Position numbers and translations under genes: made by a program
Shown: one piece after another, positions 1 through 6,721 of the stretch
How the letters are laid out: each line of letters opens with the position of its first letter
How positions within the stretch are numbered: position 1 is the stretch's first letter
Notes under the pieces: model-generated
Databases searched by the model: none
The model's input: only the letters and a program-made list of their open reading frames with translations
Told to the model about the DNA's origin: nothing
From: Algoriphagus lutimaris
GTDB lineage: Bacteria > Bacteroidota > Bacteroidia > Cytophagales > Cyclobacteriaceae
Direction of reading: 5' to 3'
DNA: 64,000 nucleotides
Assembly: GCF_017051705.1 (NCBI RefSeq)
Contig: NZ_JAFIDJ010000001.1
Span: forward strand, 1,951,786 to 2,015,785

Positions 1-1
1 A

Positions 2-562
2 AAATCCTCTGCCCATCTAATAATCAATAATTTCAAACCTGAACTTCATACCTTGAATCAAGTCGACCAATTTTTCAAATCGAAAATGCAAGAGGCAGGG
101 TTTAAGAGTAATCATCTTCATTATTATTACGATATGGATGGATACGCCATGACGACCAGCCTAGAAAAATTCAACGAAGACGGCAGCAAAGTCAGCTCAG
201 ACAAACGATTCACTGAAAGCATGGGCGAAGATGGAAAGTTCTCTTACTTCGAGATATTCAAGTCTATCTTTTTTGAAGTAGAATCCGAATTCCGGATGTT
301 CGCATTTGTTGTTGCCTCCAAAGCAGCTACTATGAGTGGCGAGATTATGACTTCCACCTTTGCTGAAGAAATCCTCCAAAATAGCTACCCAACCCTTCCT
401 GATGAATTAAAAAACAAATCACTTCCAACAAAAGAACTGACAATTCTAGTATATCATTTCCACCAAAATGATATTGGTCAAGTACCTGAGTTAGATTTAA
501 GTGGCAGTTGGGATGTACAAGATCACCTCAGAAGCGCGGGGATTCTTTCAATCAATCAATAA
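2..562 (+). CDS. Unrecognised protein, C-terminal part (5' end outside window)
   Basis: The frame is open from base 2 to the stop at 560-562, giving at least 186 residues, so the true start lies before the window. A TTG at 53 is in frame, but nothing upstream closes the frame and I do not take it as the start. The visible part is soluble, acidic and mixed alpha/beta, with no signal peptide or membrane segment. A stretch rich in Phe and Glu (around FFEVESEFRMFAF) precedes a small-residue segment and a Leu/Pro-rich tail. I do not recognise the family. The stop is 7 bases from the stop of the facing nSTAND gene, so the two genes converge. Whether it belongs to the neighbouring two-gene system cannot be told from the window. 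Confidence 0.6.
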   Translation, partial: KSSAHLIINNFKPELHTLNQVDQFFKSKMQEAGFKSNHLHYYYDMDGYAMTTSLEKFNEDGSKVSSDKRFTESMGEDGKFSYFEIFKSIFFEVESEFRMFAFVVASKAATMSGEIMTSTFAEEILQNSYPTLPDELKNKSLPTKELTILVYHFHQNDIGQVPELDLSGSWDVQDHLRSAGILSINQ

Positions 563-569
563 TTGAAGA

Positions 570-2546
570 TTAACTATCCTCTGGTGGATTGGCTTTAAAA
601 TATTCCTCATAAGAAAAGTTTCTAGTGATGGTGTCTCCCGCATTCAACAATATTTCGATTTTCATAACTGGGCAATACCCATACCCCAAATAGCCTATCG
701 AAAATTGGGATGAAGGATCTCTTGAAATTCTAAGCCGATCTATAAACCCGGGGCAAAAATGATAATGTACTTCTTTGATTTCTTCTTTGCGGAAAGAAGG
801 CACATCTAACCACATGGTGAAATTTCTGTTATTCCCCCCCTTATTCGAAGGACTAACCGAGGCTTCTATAGAAATTAAACTATCCAAAGGATAGGTCCGC
901 TCTTTATAAAGGATGTCCATCAAAGCAGAGTCGGTTACATCCTCATAATTTCTCCCTCGTCCCTTCATTACTAATCTCAACAATTCTTCTGTTCGATCAA
1001 GATCCTTTTGCCTGGCTAAATCTCTCTCTAAATCCGCTATTTGAGACCTTCTGTTTTTTATCTCCCGAATCACAAAAAATGAAATACTAACCAGAATAAT
1101 ACTTGCGATCACACCTATCCATATCCTTCTTTCCCTTTTCTTTCTATTCATTTCTAACAACTTATTCTTTGCTGCTAGATCTTTTTGTTCGCGGATGTAT
1201 TGTTCACTTTTTTTAATCCAGTCAGTTTCCTCCTTGGTTTGCTTGAACTTCTCTAAATAGGGTTCAATAAACACCAATTGCTTTTCGGAAAAATACTCTC
1301 TTGCTTCCTCTTTGATTGACACCTGACTTTTGATCAATCGTTTGATCTCCAACAAGGCTTTCTCCTCCACACTTCGCTTTTCAGCAATAGGCTTGGCTAA
1401 AGAATCATGTGCTATTTCAAAAGAATCAATGCTCTCATTGTAGCGGAGCATTCGACTATTAATAAAAGCCAAAAGGACTTCTTCCACGAGCTTTTTATCA
1501 AAATCCGGTAACCGATCAAAAAGCTCTTTTTTGCTGATTGGTTCTTTAGTACCTTCTAAAGTAGCAAAAGGAGACAAAATTTTCCAGGTGGTTTCTGCGT
1601 TTAACTTCGGGTATTTCCCCTTCAATTCACTGGAAATAGAAGCAACCTGCTCCTCCAAAAAATTACTTAGAATATCCCCAATCTCACCCATTTCATTGAC
1701 TTTGGCCAATGTAAATTCAGCAGGCTTTTCTCGTTTATGATCCCCAGATATATTCAAATACAGTTTATCTAAAAACACCTGCAAGAAGGGTAATTGAATA
1801 GTCAGGGATTTCTTACTGCCTTTAATTTTTTGGAAAATAGCCTCTGCAACTGCATACTCTTCACCTGTCTTTATGCCAATATTCGAACCTTCAAAAGTAG
1901 CCGCACCAATAATTACCTGCTTCACTTTTTCTAAGTTCATAGGTTCTACTCGAAGTTTTTTCTGTAGAAGTTGAGGGATTTCGCGCTCGAATTCCACCAA
2001 GTATCCCAAATACTCTTCCCGAATCGAAAAAATCATTTTAACAGGTTGGTAGGAATGCAAAATTCCCTTAATAGTTTCTAAAAATTCTTGTTGCTCGGAT
2101 TTAGACCCTAAAATAAATAGTTCCTCAAACTGGTCAAATATTAGGTATATAGGCCTAAAGGATTTTTGATAGATTGCTTTTAACGCTTTGCTGGTGGGAG
2201 TCAACTCTTCCCCGTTCTTACCAGTTTCATTATCCCAATCGTCTACCCATTGTGAACTTTCCTCTTCTGCATCTCCACCCGCGTTTTTCAAAATGGTTTT
2301 CAAGGAGGTATTAATATTATTTCCACGTCTGACCATCAGATCTAACCAGTCGTGCGGTTGAAACTTTCCAGCCAGTCCACAATTTATCAAACTGGTTTTA
2401 CCAGTTCCTGAAGCTCCATAAACCAAAACCACAGGAGACTGAAATACCATTTCATACAGGGTGTTAATCTCCTCATCCCTTCCAAAAAATACGACCCTAT
2501 CTTCTCTATCATAGGAATCCAGAAATTTGAAAGGATATTTTTTCAT
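570..2546 (-). CDS. nSTAND-type P-loop NTPase with one membrane segment
   Basis: The 658-residue protein begins with a STAND-like ATPase: a short FFGRDEEI lead-in (20-27), Walker A GASGTGKT (44-51), Walker B IYLIFDQFEELF (133-144) and a sensor-like FSIREEYL (173-180). A winged-helix-like part ends in an AHDSLA motif (about 379-384), typical of the nSTAND1 group. A charged coiled-coil-prone stretch (about 390-473) leads to one membrane helix (about 474-493) flanked by Arg/Lys on both sides. After it come a second short coiled coil and a beta-rich C-terminal domain of about 130 residues that I do not recognise. STAND NTPases act as signal-triggered switches that oligomerise. This one is probably anchored in the inner membrane. 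It lies 27 bases downstream of the TIR-like gene and is probably co-transcribed with it. NTPase identity is firm; a role in defence or signalling is inferred. Confidence 0.85.
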   Translation of the reverse strand: MKKYPFKFLDSYDREDRVVFFGRDEEINTLYEMVFQSPVVLVYGASGTGKTSLINCGLAGKFQPHDWLDLMVRRGNNINTSLKTILKNAGGDAEEESSQWVDDWDNETGKNGEELTPTSKALKAIYQKSFRPIYLIFDQFEELFILGSKSEQQEFLETIKGILHSYQPVKMIFSIREEYLGYLVEFEREIPQLLQKKLRVEPMNLEKVKQVIIGAATFEGSNIGIKTGEEYAVAEAIFQKIKGSKKSLTIQLPFLQVFLDKLYLNISGDHKREKPAEFTLAKVNEMGEIGDILSNFLEEQVASISSELKGKYPKLNAETTWKILSPFATLEGTKEPISKKELFDRLPDFDKKLVEEVLLAFINSRMLRYNESIDSFEIAHDSLAKPIAEKRSVEEKALLEIKRLIKSQVSIKEEAREYFSEKQLVFIEPYLEKFKQTKEETDWIKKSEQYIREQKDLAAKNKLLEMNRKKRERRIWIGVIASIILVSISFFVIREIKNRRSQIADLERDLARQKDLDRTEELLRLVMKGRGRNYEDVTDSALMDILYKERTYPLDSLISIEASVSPSNKGGNNRNFTMWLDVPSFRKEEIKEVHYHFCPGFIDRLRISRDPSSQFSIGYLGYGYCPVMKIEILLNAGDTITRNFSYEEYFKANPPEDS

Positions 2547-2573
2547 GAAATTATCTTTTAAGTAATTGGGAAA

Positions 2574-4277
2574 TCAAAATAAATCTTCCGTGGTTTCTTC
2601 TTCAATGCCAGTTAAGGTCTTCTTCGCATGATAAAACAAACTATAGACCTTATCGAAATTCATGTCTTTCCTATTCTCCTTTTTGGAAAGCCACTTATTC
2701 AAAGCATTTAAATCCTCCTCATCCGGTTTAGGGTTATTGGATTTTTTGATCACCACATTGCTATTATCCTCGATAAACTTAAAGTTCAGATTGCCATCAT
2801 CGTACGTATTGCAATAGGAATAAAAACAAATTTTGGAACCTCCTGTCAGAGCCAGACCATTGTAGTCTATGATAAAAGGGTCTAAGTTAATATTCTTCCT
2901 GTAATTGTCTTTGAACAAAATCACAGCATGGGAAATCACAGGAGAAGACTCTCTTCTAACATTACTTTGGCCAGTATTATTAGCATGACTTTCTCCTACT
3001 AAAAACGTGTAATTATGCAAGTACAATCCCTCCTCGTCGTTCCGCTGTTGATTAAAATCAATCTCATTAATAGAAATCATTCTATACTCGGCAAGAAAGC
3101 TCAAATCCCCTAGAATTACGGCCAAATTCTCCTCCGCATCCAAACAGTCTTTTCCTGAAAGTTCTTTTCCTTTTGCTGATTTCTGAAGTTCCATCAATTG
3201 CTCGCAAGCTTGGTAAAAGGCAGTCCCTTCTTGAAGTTGTGGAAGAATTTCTAATGATTCGGAAATCAAAAACCCCAATTTATTGTCTTTGAATGCTGTG
3301 ATCAGGTTTTCCATTAGTTCCAGAAGTCCCATCAGATCCTCCTCCGCAGCATTCTTAAAAAACTTCACAATGGCTTCCTTTTGCATAGGAGAAAATTCAG
3401 GTTTCTTCTCTAAATGATGATCCCACAAGGTAGATATCAAAGAATAACTGATCAATTGAAGGCTTCGCTTCGCAGCCAGTTGACAGTTTTCAATATACCT
3501 CGTCAACTTACTGGCAGAAAAGGGTTCCTCTCCGATGGACATCAGTTTCCGGATTTGTACTCCAATCACTCCCACATATCCATTGATGATGATCCTTTTA
3601 GCCGTTCTTACGAGCTGTGGGTTTTCTGCCCAATCCGAATTTGCACCTAGAAAATCTGCAGCTTTTTTATTATGCTTGCTAATAGCTTCTAATAATCGTT
3701 TTGTTAATTCTTCATTGAAAAAAACTTGTTCAACTTGGCTTTCTTGCCCCCCTTTTTTATTGGCAATTGGATCTTTCCAAGAACTTATCTCCTCTTCATA
3801 AATTGCCAAAAACTTATCCAGCTGGAACCTATACTGATTTATCAGATTATCAATATTGGTATACTCTGTATAGAAATGGCCCAAGTCTCCTATTTTCTTT
3901 TTGAATGCAAGAAGGGTATTGATTTCATCGGTAATAGACCCAGTGTTGATTTGAGCATTCTTAAAATAAGTCCAAATCCTAGGCTTCCCTTTTTCTTTAA
4001 AAACTTGGTATGCAGTATCAAATTCTTCTGCAGTATACTTCCCTACTTTCGTGAAAAACAAACACAATACGATATCGCAGTTACGGATAGCCTCATTGTA
4101 TTCATTTTGAAGTCTAGAGTCAGAAATTGCATCTAAAAAATTTTCCCATTGCACCAACTCCAGATACAAGCCTTTCTTATGAAGAAAATCATTTTGTTGA
4201 CTAATAAAATTTCTGAATTGATCCCTATCTTCTTTCAATTCTGAAGATGAAGCAATAAATATCCGGATCGTTTTCAT
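2574..4277 (-). CDS. TIR-like (DUF4062-type) N-terminal domain with large unknown C-terminal region
   Basis: 567 residues. Residues 3-160 have the shape of a DUF4062/TIR-like Rossmann-type domain: strand 1 with IRIFIASSSELKEDR (4-18), a second strand LELVQW (39-44), then a hydrophobic strand IVLCLFFTKVGKY (69-81) followed by TAEEFDTAY (82-90), where a Glu sits where TIR-type enzymes carry their catalytic acid. Residues 160-567 match no family I know: an alpha-helical part rich in Leu and Lys (190-390), then a mixed alpha/beta part with several Tyr and Asn. No signal peptide or membrane helix is visible. It is the first gene of a pair with the nSTAND NTPase, 27 bases upstream. TIR-like domains in such settings are often NAD-consuming effectors or signal producers. 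That activity here is inference, since the match is by pattern only. Confidence 0.7.
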   Translation of the reverse strand: MKTIRIFIASSSELKEDRDQFRNFISQQNDFLHKKGLYLELVQWENFLDAISDSRLQNEYNEAIRNCDIVLCLFFTKVGKYTAEEFDTAYQVFKEKGKPRIWTYFKNAQINTGSITDEINTLLAFKKKIGDLGHFYTEYTNIDNLINQYRFQLDKFLAIYEEEISSWKDPIANKKGGQESQVEQVFFNEELTKRLLEAISKHNKKAADFLGANSDWAENPQLVRTAKRIIINGYVGVIGVQIRKLMSIGEEPFSASKLTRYIENCQLAAKRSLQLISYSLISTLWDHHLEKKPEFSPMQKEAIVKFFKNAAEEDLMGLLELMENLITAFKDNKLGFLISESLEILPQLQEGTAFYQACEQLMELQKSAKGKELSGKDCLDAEENLAVILGDLSFLAEYRMISINEIDFNQQRNDEEGLYLHNYTFLVGESHANNTGQSNVRRESSPVISHAVILFKDNYRKNINLDPFIIDYNGLALTGGSKICFYSYCNTYDDGNLNFKFIEDNSNVVIKKSNNPKPDEEDLNALNKWLSKKENRKDMNFDKVYSLFYHAKKTLTGIEEETTEDLF

Positions 4278-4460: not shown

Positions 4461-5501
4461 ATCTTGATTTTTTGAAAAGTACTTGGCCATCACCAATTCT
4501 GCCTTTTTCCCCTGAGGAGTAAAATCAGGTTCCCGATCATGTCTGTTGGGATACCACTTCCAGAAATACACACCTGCCAGCCAACTTTTGGGCCATGCTG
4601 ATTCAAAAAATGCTTCATAGCATAAAGCTTGTGCCGTTTCCGAAAACTCAATTTCTTTCCGTTCATTTGGCCAAACCCAAGGCTCAATGGCTGCATCCAC
4701 AGTATTGCAATAGCCGATTTCAGTAAAAAGAACTGGCTTTTGATACTTTTTAACCACCTTTTCAACTTTCGGAAGTTGCCTTTTCCAACCTTCTTTTAAA
4801 TCTTCGAGACTAGGGTTATGAGCATCTGCTAAAGGAAAGTAGGCTTGAATCCCAATGTAGTCCAGCTTATCCCAAAAAGTAATGTGTTCAAATTCGGTGA
4901 AATTCGCCGCATAGACCAGTTTACCAGAATAAACCTTTCTAATAGCTGTAATGATTTGCTCCCAATCTTCTGACCTTTCGCTTGTCATTTCCAGCTCAGT
5001 CCCAATACAAAGCATTGGTATCCCTAACTTCTCTGCGAGGTTGGCATAATCTAAAATGAATTTGGAGTAATTATTAAACCAAGCCTCCCAATCGGCCTTA
5101 TTTTTCATTTTAATTTCGCCTGGCCAACTACCCCTTACCCAAAGGTGAGGTTTCAGCATGTTGGTAATTCCCAAAACTTTGGAGGAATCATGAGTTACTT
5201 GAATACCCTTACCTGATTCTCCCCACCATTGTCGCTCTGCATCCACCTCCCAACGAATCTCAGGACTATTGACATCACTTTGCCATCCGAAAGGAGTTTG
5301 AGAAATAGCATTGGCTCCTATGGCTTTCAAGGCTCTTAACTCACTTCCATCCAAAGGAGACCGGCTACCTACCCAACATACTCCTTTCCACTTTTCTGAA
5401 GCCACGAGTATTTCCTCTTCCGGCATGACCCACCACAGCATTCCAAAGGCTAGAATAACCGTAAAAGAGCTTAACAAATACCTGCTATACCAAAGCTTCA
5501 T
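4455..5501 (-). CDS. GH113-like glycoside hydrolase (beta-mannanase type), membrane-anchored
   Basis: 348 residues. An uncleaved or cleaved N-terminal hydrophobic segment (about 9-26, SSFTVILAFGMLWWVM region) sends the rest out of the cytoplasm. The body is a TIM-barrel glycosidase of the GH113/GTA type. CIGTEL carries the likely acid/base Glu169 and LFTEIGY the likely nucleophile Glu261. Trp-rich loops (WVGS, GWQS, WVWPNE, FWKWYP) are typical of sugar subsites. GH113 members cut beta-1,4-mannan. The start overlaps the stop of the upstream hydrolase-OsmC gene by four bases (5498-5501), so it is translationally coupled and last in the operon. Its position behind glycosyltransferase genes suggests glycan trimming rather than plain scavenging, which is inference. 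The exact substrate cannot be read from sequence. Confidence 0.8.
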   Translation of the reverse strand: MKLWYSRYLLSSFTVILAFGMLWWVMPEEEILVASEKWKGVCWVGSRSPLDGSELRALKAIGANAISQTPFGWQSDVNSPEIRWEVDAERQWWGESGKGIQVTHDSSKVLGITNMLKPHLWVRGSWPGEIKMKNKADWEAWFNNYSKFILDYANLAEKLGIPMLCIGTELEMTSERSEDWEQIITAIRKVYSGKLVYAANFTEFEHITFWDKLDYIGIQAYFPLADAHNPSLEDLKEGWKRQLPKVEKVVKKYQKPVLFTEIGYCNTVDAAIEPWVWPNERKEIEFSETAQALCYEAFFESAWPKSWLAGVYFWKWYPNRHDREPDFTPQGKKAELVMAKYFSKNQDS

Positions 5502-6721
5502 GGTTTTTTAATAAGTGTCTGAATTACAATATCTTCATCTAAGGTACGATGTACCGGGCAACGATGGGAAATTTCCAAGAGTCTTTGTCGCTGATCTTCC
5601 TTCAAATCTCCCTCCAATTCAATGATTCTGGTAAATCGACTGACTTTTGATTCCTTTTCATTTGGGTTTTTACTATCATTCAAATGAACTTTGTCATGAT
5701 TCAAGTATACCGTCACTTCCTTCAAATCCCATTTCTTCCTATTTGCATACATTTTGAGTGTCATAGCAGTACAACTCCCCAAAGAGGCCATTAAAAAATC
5801 ATAGGGATTTGGTCCAAGATTATTTCCTCCAACTTCCAATGGCTCATCCGCAATCATATGATGATAAGGAGTCTTAATTTCTGTTGTATATCCTGGACCT
5901 GATAACCTTACTTTAACCTGGTTTCCATCTGTCAGGTATTTTTCACCTTCTTTCCTCTCTACTAAGACATATCGTTTGCTCCAACTTGAAATAAGTTCAC
6001 CTACATATTGGCTATCATCTTTTTTGCTAACCATATGATCAGAACCATCCAGCGACACAAAACTCTTCGGATGTCTAGCAGCATGATATATTTCAGAAGC
6101 ATTCTTAATTTCTACAATTTCATCCTGTGGGGAATGGACGATCAATAGTGATTTCTTGAGATTTTTCAACAGATCTTCCAATGGTTTCTGATCCAAATCA
6201 TCTAGAAATTCTTTTGATATTCGAAAAGGTCTTCCCCCAATCTTTACCTCCGCACTACCTAATTTTTCAATTTGCTCTAAGGTTTCTGTAAAAAGATGGG
6301 TCACATGTTCAGGAAAAGCTGGAGCCCCTATGGTCACTACTGCAGTAACTTTTGGTAGATCCAAACTGGCGTACAGAACAGCTGCACCACCAAGAGAATG
6401 GCCTACTAACATTTTTGGGGCTTGATAGGTGTTTTCTAAGAAATCGGCAGCATCTTTTAAATCAGTAATATTCGAAGAGAAATTACTCCGTTCGAATTTT
6501 CCTTCACTATTTCCCAATCCAGTAAAATCAAAGCTTAAAACCGCTATTCCTTGCTGAGAAAGCGCAATACTGATCCGCTTTACAGCAGAAAAGTTTTGAG
6601 AGCAGGTAAAACAATGTGCAAAAACCGCATAGTAAATAGGAACTTGATCCAAAGGCTCATACAAATGCGCTGCTAGATCTAGGCCTTTCCTATTTTTAAA
6701 TGTCAGTTTTTTTGGATTCAT
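5498..6721 (-). CDS. Alpha/beta hydrolase fused to OsmC-like peroxiredoxin domain
   Basis: 407 residues with two domains. Residues 1-250 are an alpha/beta hydrolase with nucleophile elbow GHSLGG (107-112, Ser109), acid Asp200 and His229. Residues 255-407 are an OsmC/Ohr-like domain with Cys317 in GSCTAM and Cys388 in RCPVHR, the pair that reduces organic hydroperoxides. The fusion is a known arrangement in many bacteria; the hydrolase may free the oxidised acyl group that OsmC reduces, but that is inference. No signal peptide, so cytoplasmic. It sits 7 bases after the DUF6503-like lipoprotein gene and overlaps the GH113-like gene by four bases. The start follows a CTAATT context directly. Confidence 0.9.
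   Translation of the reverse strand: MNPKKLTFKNRKGLDLAAHLYEPLDQVPIYYAVFAHCFTCSQNFSAVKRISIALSQQGIAVLSFDFTGLGNSEGKFERSNFSSNITDLKDAADFLENTYQAPKMLVGHSLGGAAVLYASLDLPKVTAVVTIGAPAFPEHVTHLFTETLEQIEKLGSAEVKIGGRPFRISKEFLDDLDQKPLEDLLKNLKKSLLIVHSPQDEIVEIKNASEIYHAARHPKSFVSLDGSDHMVSKKDDSQYVGELISSWSKRYVLVERKEGEKYLTDGNQVKVRLSGPGYTTEIKTPYHHMIADEPLEVGGNNLGPNPYDFLMASLGSCTAMTLKMYANRKKWDLKEVTVYLNHDKVHLNDSKNPNEKESKVSRFTRIIELEGDLKEDQRQRLLEISHRCPVHRTLDEDIVIQTLIKKP

Follow-up and report, generated by a model that had tools for sequence, protein, structure and literature searches.

The window analysed here is a stretch of 64,000 nt from Algoriphagus lutimaris (NCBI RefSeq assembly GCF_017051705.1, contig NZ_JAFIDJ010000001.1, positions 1,951,786 to 2,015,785 of the forward strand), and at its left end lies a cassette that encodes a DUF4062/TIR-like effector (P2), a STAND nucleoside triphosphatase (NTPase) with one membrane helix (P1) and the product of a convergent third gene (P3). 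With moderate confidence, we read the cassette as a mobile, membrane-spanning, outside-in STAND switch of three genes that releases NAD+-hydrolysing (NADase) activity, probably as a form of abortive immunity. It is a variant of the STAND-effector conflict systems in which the three-gene layout and the probably extracytoplasmic sensor are surprising. An initial annotation, made from the DNA alone, had described two genes on one strand, 27 bases apart, with the effector-like gene first. The open reading frames (ORFs) at 2574-4277 and 570-2546, both on the minus strand and separated by 27 nt, are as described, but the two-gene system built on them was incomplete because the convergent P3 makes a third gene. 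The domains that it had called unknown on both proteins can now be placed in part: that of P1 is pYEATS, and that of P2 is an adaptor also seen with proteases and DNA-binding domains. The features of the cassette are as follows (aa, amino acids; TM, transmembrane).

2574..4277, minus strand: P2, DUF4062/TIR-like effector fused to a C-terminal adaptor, 567 aa
3798..4277, minus strand: DUF4062/TIR-like domain of P2, aa 1-160
4023-4025, minus strand: codon of the putative catalytic Glu85 of P2 (Glu in 28/29 aligned domains)
2577..3719, minus strand: adaptor of P2, aa 187-567 (no Pfam, NCBIfam or PADLOC match)
570..2546, minus strand: P1, nSTAND1 NTPase with one TM helix and a C-terminal pYEATS domain, 658 aa
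2394..2417, minus strand: Walker A of P1, aa 44-51, GASGTGKT (invariant in 14/14 orthologues)
1068..1124, minus strand: TM helix of P1, aa 475-493 (predicted N-in, C-out)
618..824, minus strand: pYEATS domain of P1, aa 575-643 (holds Cys598 and Cys625)
1..562, plus strand: 3' end of P3, the convergent third gene, which runs past the window edge; the whole gene (539 aa) is at G000:C1:1950728-1952347, equal to L054:4729-6348

In the mechanism that we propose, P1 would be the switch, with its nSTAND1 NTPase in the cytoplasm, one helix across the inner membrane and, judging from the charge bias around that helix, pYEATS in the periplasm. P3 would be secreted and would present or recognise the trigger there. 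Engagement of the periplasmic side would, if P1 follows STAND biology, lead to nucleotide exchange and oligomerisation of P1. P2 would dock on the NTPase by its adaptor, bringing together TIR-like domains that may cleave NAD+, as DUF4062 biochemistry suggests (PMC13174449), and this would stop or kill the cell. As the most likely trigger we guess at phage attack or envelope damage. An outcome of death or arrest is favoured because the loss of NAD+ is costly and because CHAT and caspase outputs occur on the same adaptor.

P1 matched nSTAND1 in Pfam over aa 5-384 (146.5 bits against a cut-off of 27.1; 2.2e-42). Its Walker A and Walker B motifs are intact and were kept in 14/14 orthologues, all of which also have a single hydrophobic helix, so that the STAND NTPase with intact motifs and a one-helix anchor of the initial annotation stands. 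In PADLOC, P1 matched just PDC-S53 (9e-6) and mad8 (0.0022), both around the P-loop. Past the helix, aa 575-643 matched pYEATS (PF20305; 58.6 bits against a cut-off of 26.9; 5.6e-16, and 9.2e-17 in the genome search), and Cys598 and Cys625 of this domain were kept in 13/13 orthologues that bear it. The 15 residues before the helix hold 8 Lys or Arg (K/R) and those after it 5, and K/R before the helix outnumber those after it in 13/14 orthologues. According to the positive-inside rule the K/R-rich flank of a helix stays cytoplasmic; the surplus would therefore place pYEATS, the sensing end of P1, outside the cytoplasm, which we regard as probable. A search for PF20305 in 169 genomes of the class found two further genomes with the domain. 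In one of these the gene at L139:5949-6884 has two pYEATS matches, one of them below the cut-off, and a signal-peptide-like stretch at its start.

The N-terminal part of P2 (aa 2-163) matched the PADLOC candidate family PDC-S60 at 5.1e-13, and aa 1-158 are 52.5% identical to a plasmid protein annotated as DUF4062. Nothing in NCBIfam came near its cut-offs for either P1 or P2, no ThsA- or Avs-named model was among the PADLOC matches of the two proteins, and in its own genome P2 matched only itself. In an alignment of 30 DUF4062-like domains, 14 of them from close orthologues, 29 have a residue at the position of Glu85, which is Glu in 28 and Asp in the other (Glu in 14/15 outside the close orthologues); Glu84 is kept in 25. 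In the predicted structure of P2, Glu85 is placed where the helix behind the third strand begins, and TIR NADases have their catalytic Glu at this place. The domain could be an NADase output. DUF4062 proteins that hydrolyse NAD+ are described in the accessible part of a 2026 preprint (PMC13174449), namely KpSwz, which depends on E97 and is triggered by phage portal, and human TEP1; some DUF4062 genes are placed there in operons with diverse enzymes. The same part reports human NWD1, NWD2 and NPHP3 as being without such activity, so that a DUF4062 domain alone is no proof of an NADase. DUF4062-like domains were also seen in other company. One is in the same protein as an LRR-Roc-COR GTPase (L044:6294-9194) and one, on a cyanobacterial plasmid classed as conjugative, has LRR and COR encoded by two separate neighbouring genes (L134:2701-5492); here a different kind of switch goes with this effector. 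Another adjoins an NB-ARC-TPR protein (L043:4167-7515), and two are fused with such a protein (L045:3366-6446 and L046:4523-7336).

The adaptor (aa 187-567) gave no match in Pfam, NCBIfam or PADLOC, and P2 showed no TM helix in 14/14 orthologues. The predicted structure has a helical half at about aa 189-397 followed by a poorly predicted alpha/beta half. An adaptor profile, A3, built with L036-L038 included, found relatives in 2/395 phylum, 11/295 family and 13/395 class genomes (own genome included; the three samples overlap), and offers a handle for finding many related systems. Outside the clade of the window type we collected 25 adaptor ORFs, of which the family sample gave 6 and the class sample 19 (of 22 places); a weak family place in G131 and the class places in G940, G1007 and G857 were left out. 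Two of the 25 are at contig ends, and in 20 of the 23 loci that could be tested the next gene on the same strand encodes nSTAND1. The three misses are L089, where a 7TM-HD protein comes next, a fragment in L091 and a short copy in L100. The N-terminal part of the 25 ORFs is CHAT in 9, DUF4062-like in 2 (L039 and L090), AraC-type helix-turn-helix (HTH) in 2 (L036 and L104), caspase C14 in 1, a fragment in 1 and absent in 10. The DUF4062 label of L039 and L090 comes from our own profile and PDC-S60; in Pfam, L039 matched TIR_2 at 0.0042 and L090 had no match. A TM helix was predicted in 11/20 of the distant nSTAND1 partners, all 11 of which have more K/R before the helix than after it. Those of these partners that were scanned contain WD40 in L036, L037 and L097, LRR in L090 and no named domain in L095 and L091, and a WD40 or TPR gene follows the partner in L094, L101 and L038. 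Behind the nSTAND1-TM-WD40 genes of two loci lies a gene that matches outer-membrane beta-barrel families (L036:1869-2906 and L037:6412-7428), which hints again at envelope sensing. Genes for TPR-SpoIIE phosphatases are convergent to adaptor/nSTAND1-TM operons at L086:11182-12843 and L087:11205-13127.

Pairwise distances of the parts were compared over 13 cassettes; the correlations include the shared tree and carry no significance test. Distances of the adaptor (aa 187-398) and the NTPase gave r 0.90. The DUF4062 domain compared with other parts gave 0.25-0.49, and pYEATS 0.27-0.70. Single pairs of loci show the same unevenness: L029 and L034 are 67% identical in the TIR domain and 90-92% in the adaptor, and L029 and L030 are 98-99% identical in P2, 89% in the NTPase, 20% in the linker that holds the TM helix and 61% in pYEATS. 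The effector and sensor ends have therefore been exchanged or have diverged apart, with adaptor and NTPase kept together. Co-divergence of the latter two is what would be expected of partners that touch.

P3 lies downstream of P1 in convergent orientation and has 529-563 aa, except in L024, where it has 858 aa and an internal repeat. The N-terminal part is doubled at L024:9721-12297 and at L133:3041-5590. P3 begins with a signal-peptide-like stretch, judged by eye and borderline in hydropathy in several copies (7/12 pass the TM threshold); going by this start, P3 is probably secreted. The copy in the own genome had no Pfam match, and those of L023 and L024 had chance-level matches only. In the model of the L023 copy (predicted local distance difference test score, pLDDT, 67.7), a helical domain at about aa 45-320 is for the most part confident, whereas an alpha/beta domain is poorly predicted. 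P3 was found in 12/13 species-genome loci with full-length P2, two of them flavobacterial, and its profile matched 4/295 family genomes, which are exactly the four with full-length P2. All four are congeners, so this co-occurrence is in part due to descent; the flavobacterial copies (L032 and L033) have other flanks and therefore favour a functional linkage of P2 and P3. In L031, the sole locus without P3, P1 is without its pYEATS part and is followed by a WD40 protein whose N-terminal region includes a signal-like stretch.

Full-length relatives of P2 were found in 13 species genomes, 10 of them Algoriphagus and the others Aequorivita, Mariniflexile and Pareuzebyella, with best-segment identities of 62-76%. 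Algoriphagus belongs to Cytophagia and Mariniflexile to Flavobacteriia, to which we take Aequorivita and Pareuzebyella to belong as well. In 13/13 loci the next gene, 11-34 nt on, is a homologue of P1, as in the own genome, and three partial loci from family genomes (L002-L004) show the same pairing. Homologues of the pair are thus adjacent, as the initial annotation had expected, and its proposal that a TIR-like effector and a STAND switch act jointly is supported; neither this check nor that of the N-terminal domain refuted it. Presence is patchy: full-length P2 was found in 13/73 genomes of the genus, with partial matches only in 4 more, and in 4/295 genomes of the family sample, with partial matches in 16 more.

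In 9/10 Algoriphagus loci and the own genome the cassette lies between a GH113 gene and a gene for a Gfo/Idh/MocA-type oxidoreductase (L023 and L035 have one additional gene on the GH113 side). GH113 is present in 50/73 genus genomes, and the flanks of 20 congeners without full-length P2 were examined. In 17 of these GH113 and the oxidoreductase gene are adjacent and separated by 150 to about 1,100 nt; in the remaining three the oxidoreductase gene is outside the fetched stretch. Three of the 20 have a partial DUF4062 match elsewhere. The cassette is a discrete insertion, and in L024 (A. oliviformis) and the three flavobacteria it is at other sites. A further prediction, that the pair would often be found in defence islands, gained no support. 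Ten flanking genes tested in all from L031, L033 and L024 gave PADLOC matches only for a DEAD-box-type helicase and the L031 WD40 protein, through generic domains; the flanks of other loci were read by eye. A defence-type cluster was found only at the Mariniflexile locus L032, one of the three flavobacterial ones. Its cassette adjoins a cluster (L032:584-5096) of patatin (8.3e-58 to phospholipase effectors in PADLOC), TPR-S (1e-17), SLOG/NDT-like genes (both below cut-offs) and a TIR gene (TIR at 2.2e-10; ThsB models in PADLOC); from its looks, this cluster is another defence system. In most places the cassette does not sit among known defence genes. In two classes it is directly flanked by a GH19 (chitinase/endolysin-like) gene that encodes about 210 aa (L023:1129-1764 and L032:5140-5766). 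Elsewhere in the window, at 5498-6721, alpha/beta hydrolase and OsmC domains are fused in one gene.

Several findings weigh against an outside-in NADase switch. The Pfam DUF4062 score of P2 (22.4 bits) is under the curated cut-off of 24.7, with NPHP3 and TIR_2 matches weaker still; because of this score we call the domain DUF4062/TIR-like and not a member of PF13271. As for the TIR/DUF4062 fold, which the initial annotation had named for checking, the domain looks TIR-like, but other Rossmann-like folds match its structure equally well. Phage records gave no match, and three plasmid records matched the DUF4062 part only. The K/R counts on the two sides of the P1 helix are tied in L032, and in the other pYEATS genome of the class search the protein, of 125 aa, does not begin with a signal-like stretch.

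An alternative that we consider unlikely, though the best of those weighed, is an antiphage STAND system that senses in the cytoplasm. The P1 helix would then be a mere anchor, the adaptor or NTPase would sense an intracellular phage protein and P3 would be accessory. Such a system would resemble Swarozyc, in the accessible part of PMC13174449 a single DUF4062 protein that senses portal by an auxiliary domain. The helical half of the adaptor is highly variable, as might befit a sensor (49-63% identity, the most variable part apart from the linker; the TIR domain of P2 has 58-89%), and 9/20 distant nSTAND1 partners are without a TM helix by the threshold used. It fits poorly with the signal-peptide-like start and strict linkage of P3, and with a pYEATS domain past the helix and the C-out charge bias. 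The adaptor is moreover common to protease and AraC outputs, which suggests docking more than sensing.

Somewhat less probable is a role in envelope-stress or cell-cell signalling instead of suicide, in which P2 would make an NAD-derived messenger or act as a scaffold and the cell would adapt. The AraC-HTH versions of the adaptor indicate that the chassis is not necessarily lethal and can drive transcription, none of the 10 flanking genes at the usual Algoriphagus site in the own genome matched PADLOC, and the C-out charge bias of TM-bearing relatives suits signalling too. The patchy presence within the genus and the occurrence in Flavobacteriia argue otherwise, as do the CHAT, caspase and TIR outputs, which are typical of cell death systems (compare the accessible part of PMC8195603). 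That P3 is an unrelated passenger of the P1-P2 pair is improbable. In favour of it, the gene is convergent and not co-directional, the pair exists without P3 in L031, and the divergence of P3 tracks that of the NTPase (r 0.82-0.84) and not that of pYEATS (0.37-0.43), which speaks against a specific P3-pYEATS fit. Against it, P3 accompanies full-length P2 in all loci save L031, itself without pYEATS, even where the flavobacterial flanks differ, and is in 0/291 sampled family genomes without full-length P2.

Beyond the outside-in switch proposed for this cassette, and more tentatively, the distant loci may be read together with it as a class of modular outside-in STAND switches in Bacteroidota. 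The adaptor would plug an NADase, a CHAT or caspase protease or a transcription factor into the nSTAND1 NTPase, and the sensor (pYEATS, WD40 or LRR) would be periplasmic in the TM-bearing branch, joined here by a dedicated secreted co-sensor. To our knowledge, the STAND switches of bacterial immunity described so far recognise phage proteins intracellularly. If this reading is true, an extracytoplasmic event would trigger a death or defence programme inside the cell, and the switch would be the bacterial equivalent of a cell-surface receptor that acts through a TIR or caspase effector. Such a cross-membrane STAND sensor would show how an external event leads to NAD+ loss, proteolysis or gene expression, and the cassette would give a testable home to DUF4062, a just reported NADase family that includes human TEP1.

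Among known systems, Thoeris and Avs/AVAST use a TIR effector or a STAND NTPase in antiphage defence; here effector and NTPase are separate proteins, and the PADLOC matches are to other models than those named ThsA or Avs. nSTAND1 proteins with diversified lectin-type domains are reported in the accessible part of PMC10907252. EACC1, as described in the available sections of PMC7159879, is likewise a two-gene, membrane-associated conflict system with exchangeable parts. Its 5' gene has the TM helix and its 3' gene frequently a caspase, whereas the 5' gene of the cassette is without TM and the 3' gene encodes the membrane NTPase; the lack of TM in P2 (14/14) and of any EACC1-named Pfam match sets the cassette apart from that group. 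The TRADD-N systems, in the portion of PMC8195603 available, follow the same logic of a variable TIR, caspase or HTH effector on a constant adaptor, in some cases coupled to STAND, and nSTAND1 is named there. They use AP-ATPase-TPR proteins, in contrast to an nSTAND1 with a TM helix and a sensor beyond it, and since the adaptor has no Pfam match, the likeness is one of description and not of profile comparison. Closest are Swarozyc and TEP1, again from the accessible part of PMC13174449. Swarozyc is one portal-triggered protein with an HTH/winged auxiliary domain that binds portal; P2 gave no Pfam HTH match, and in the cassette the effector carries an nSTAND1-linked adaptor and is joined by a membrane NTPase as a protein of its own, by pYEATS, probably in the periplasm, and by P3, probably secreted. 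With an nSTAND1 gene adjoining P2 in 13/13 loci and the own genome, its layout differs from that of the single-gene Swarozyc. P2 shares with Swarozyc and TEP1 an N-terminal DUF4062/TIR-like domain, a conserved Glu and an auxiliary region behind it, and in TEP1 and NWD1, as in the cassette, the DUF4062 domain stands beside a STAND ATPase, there of the NACHT type.

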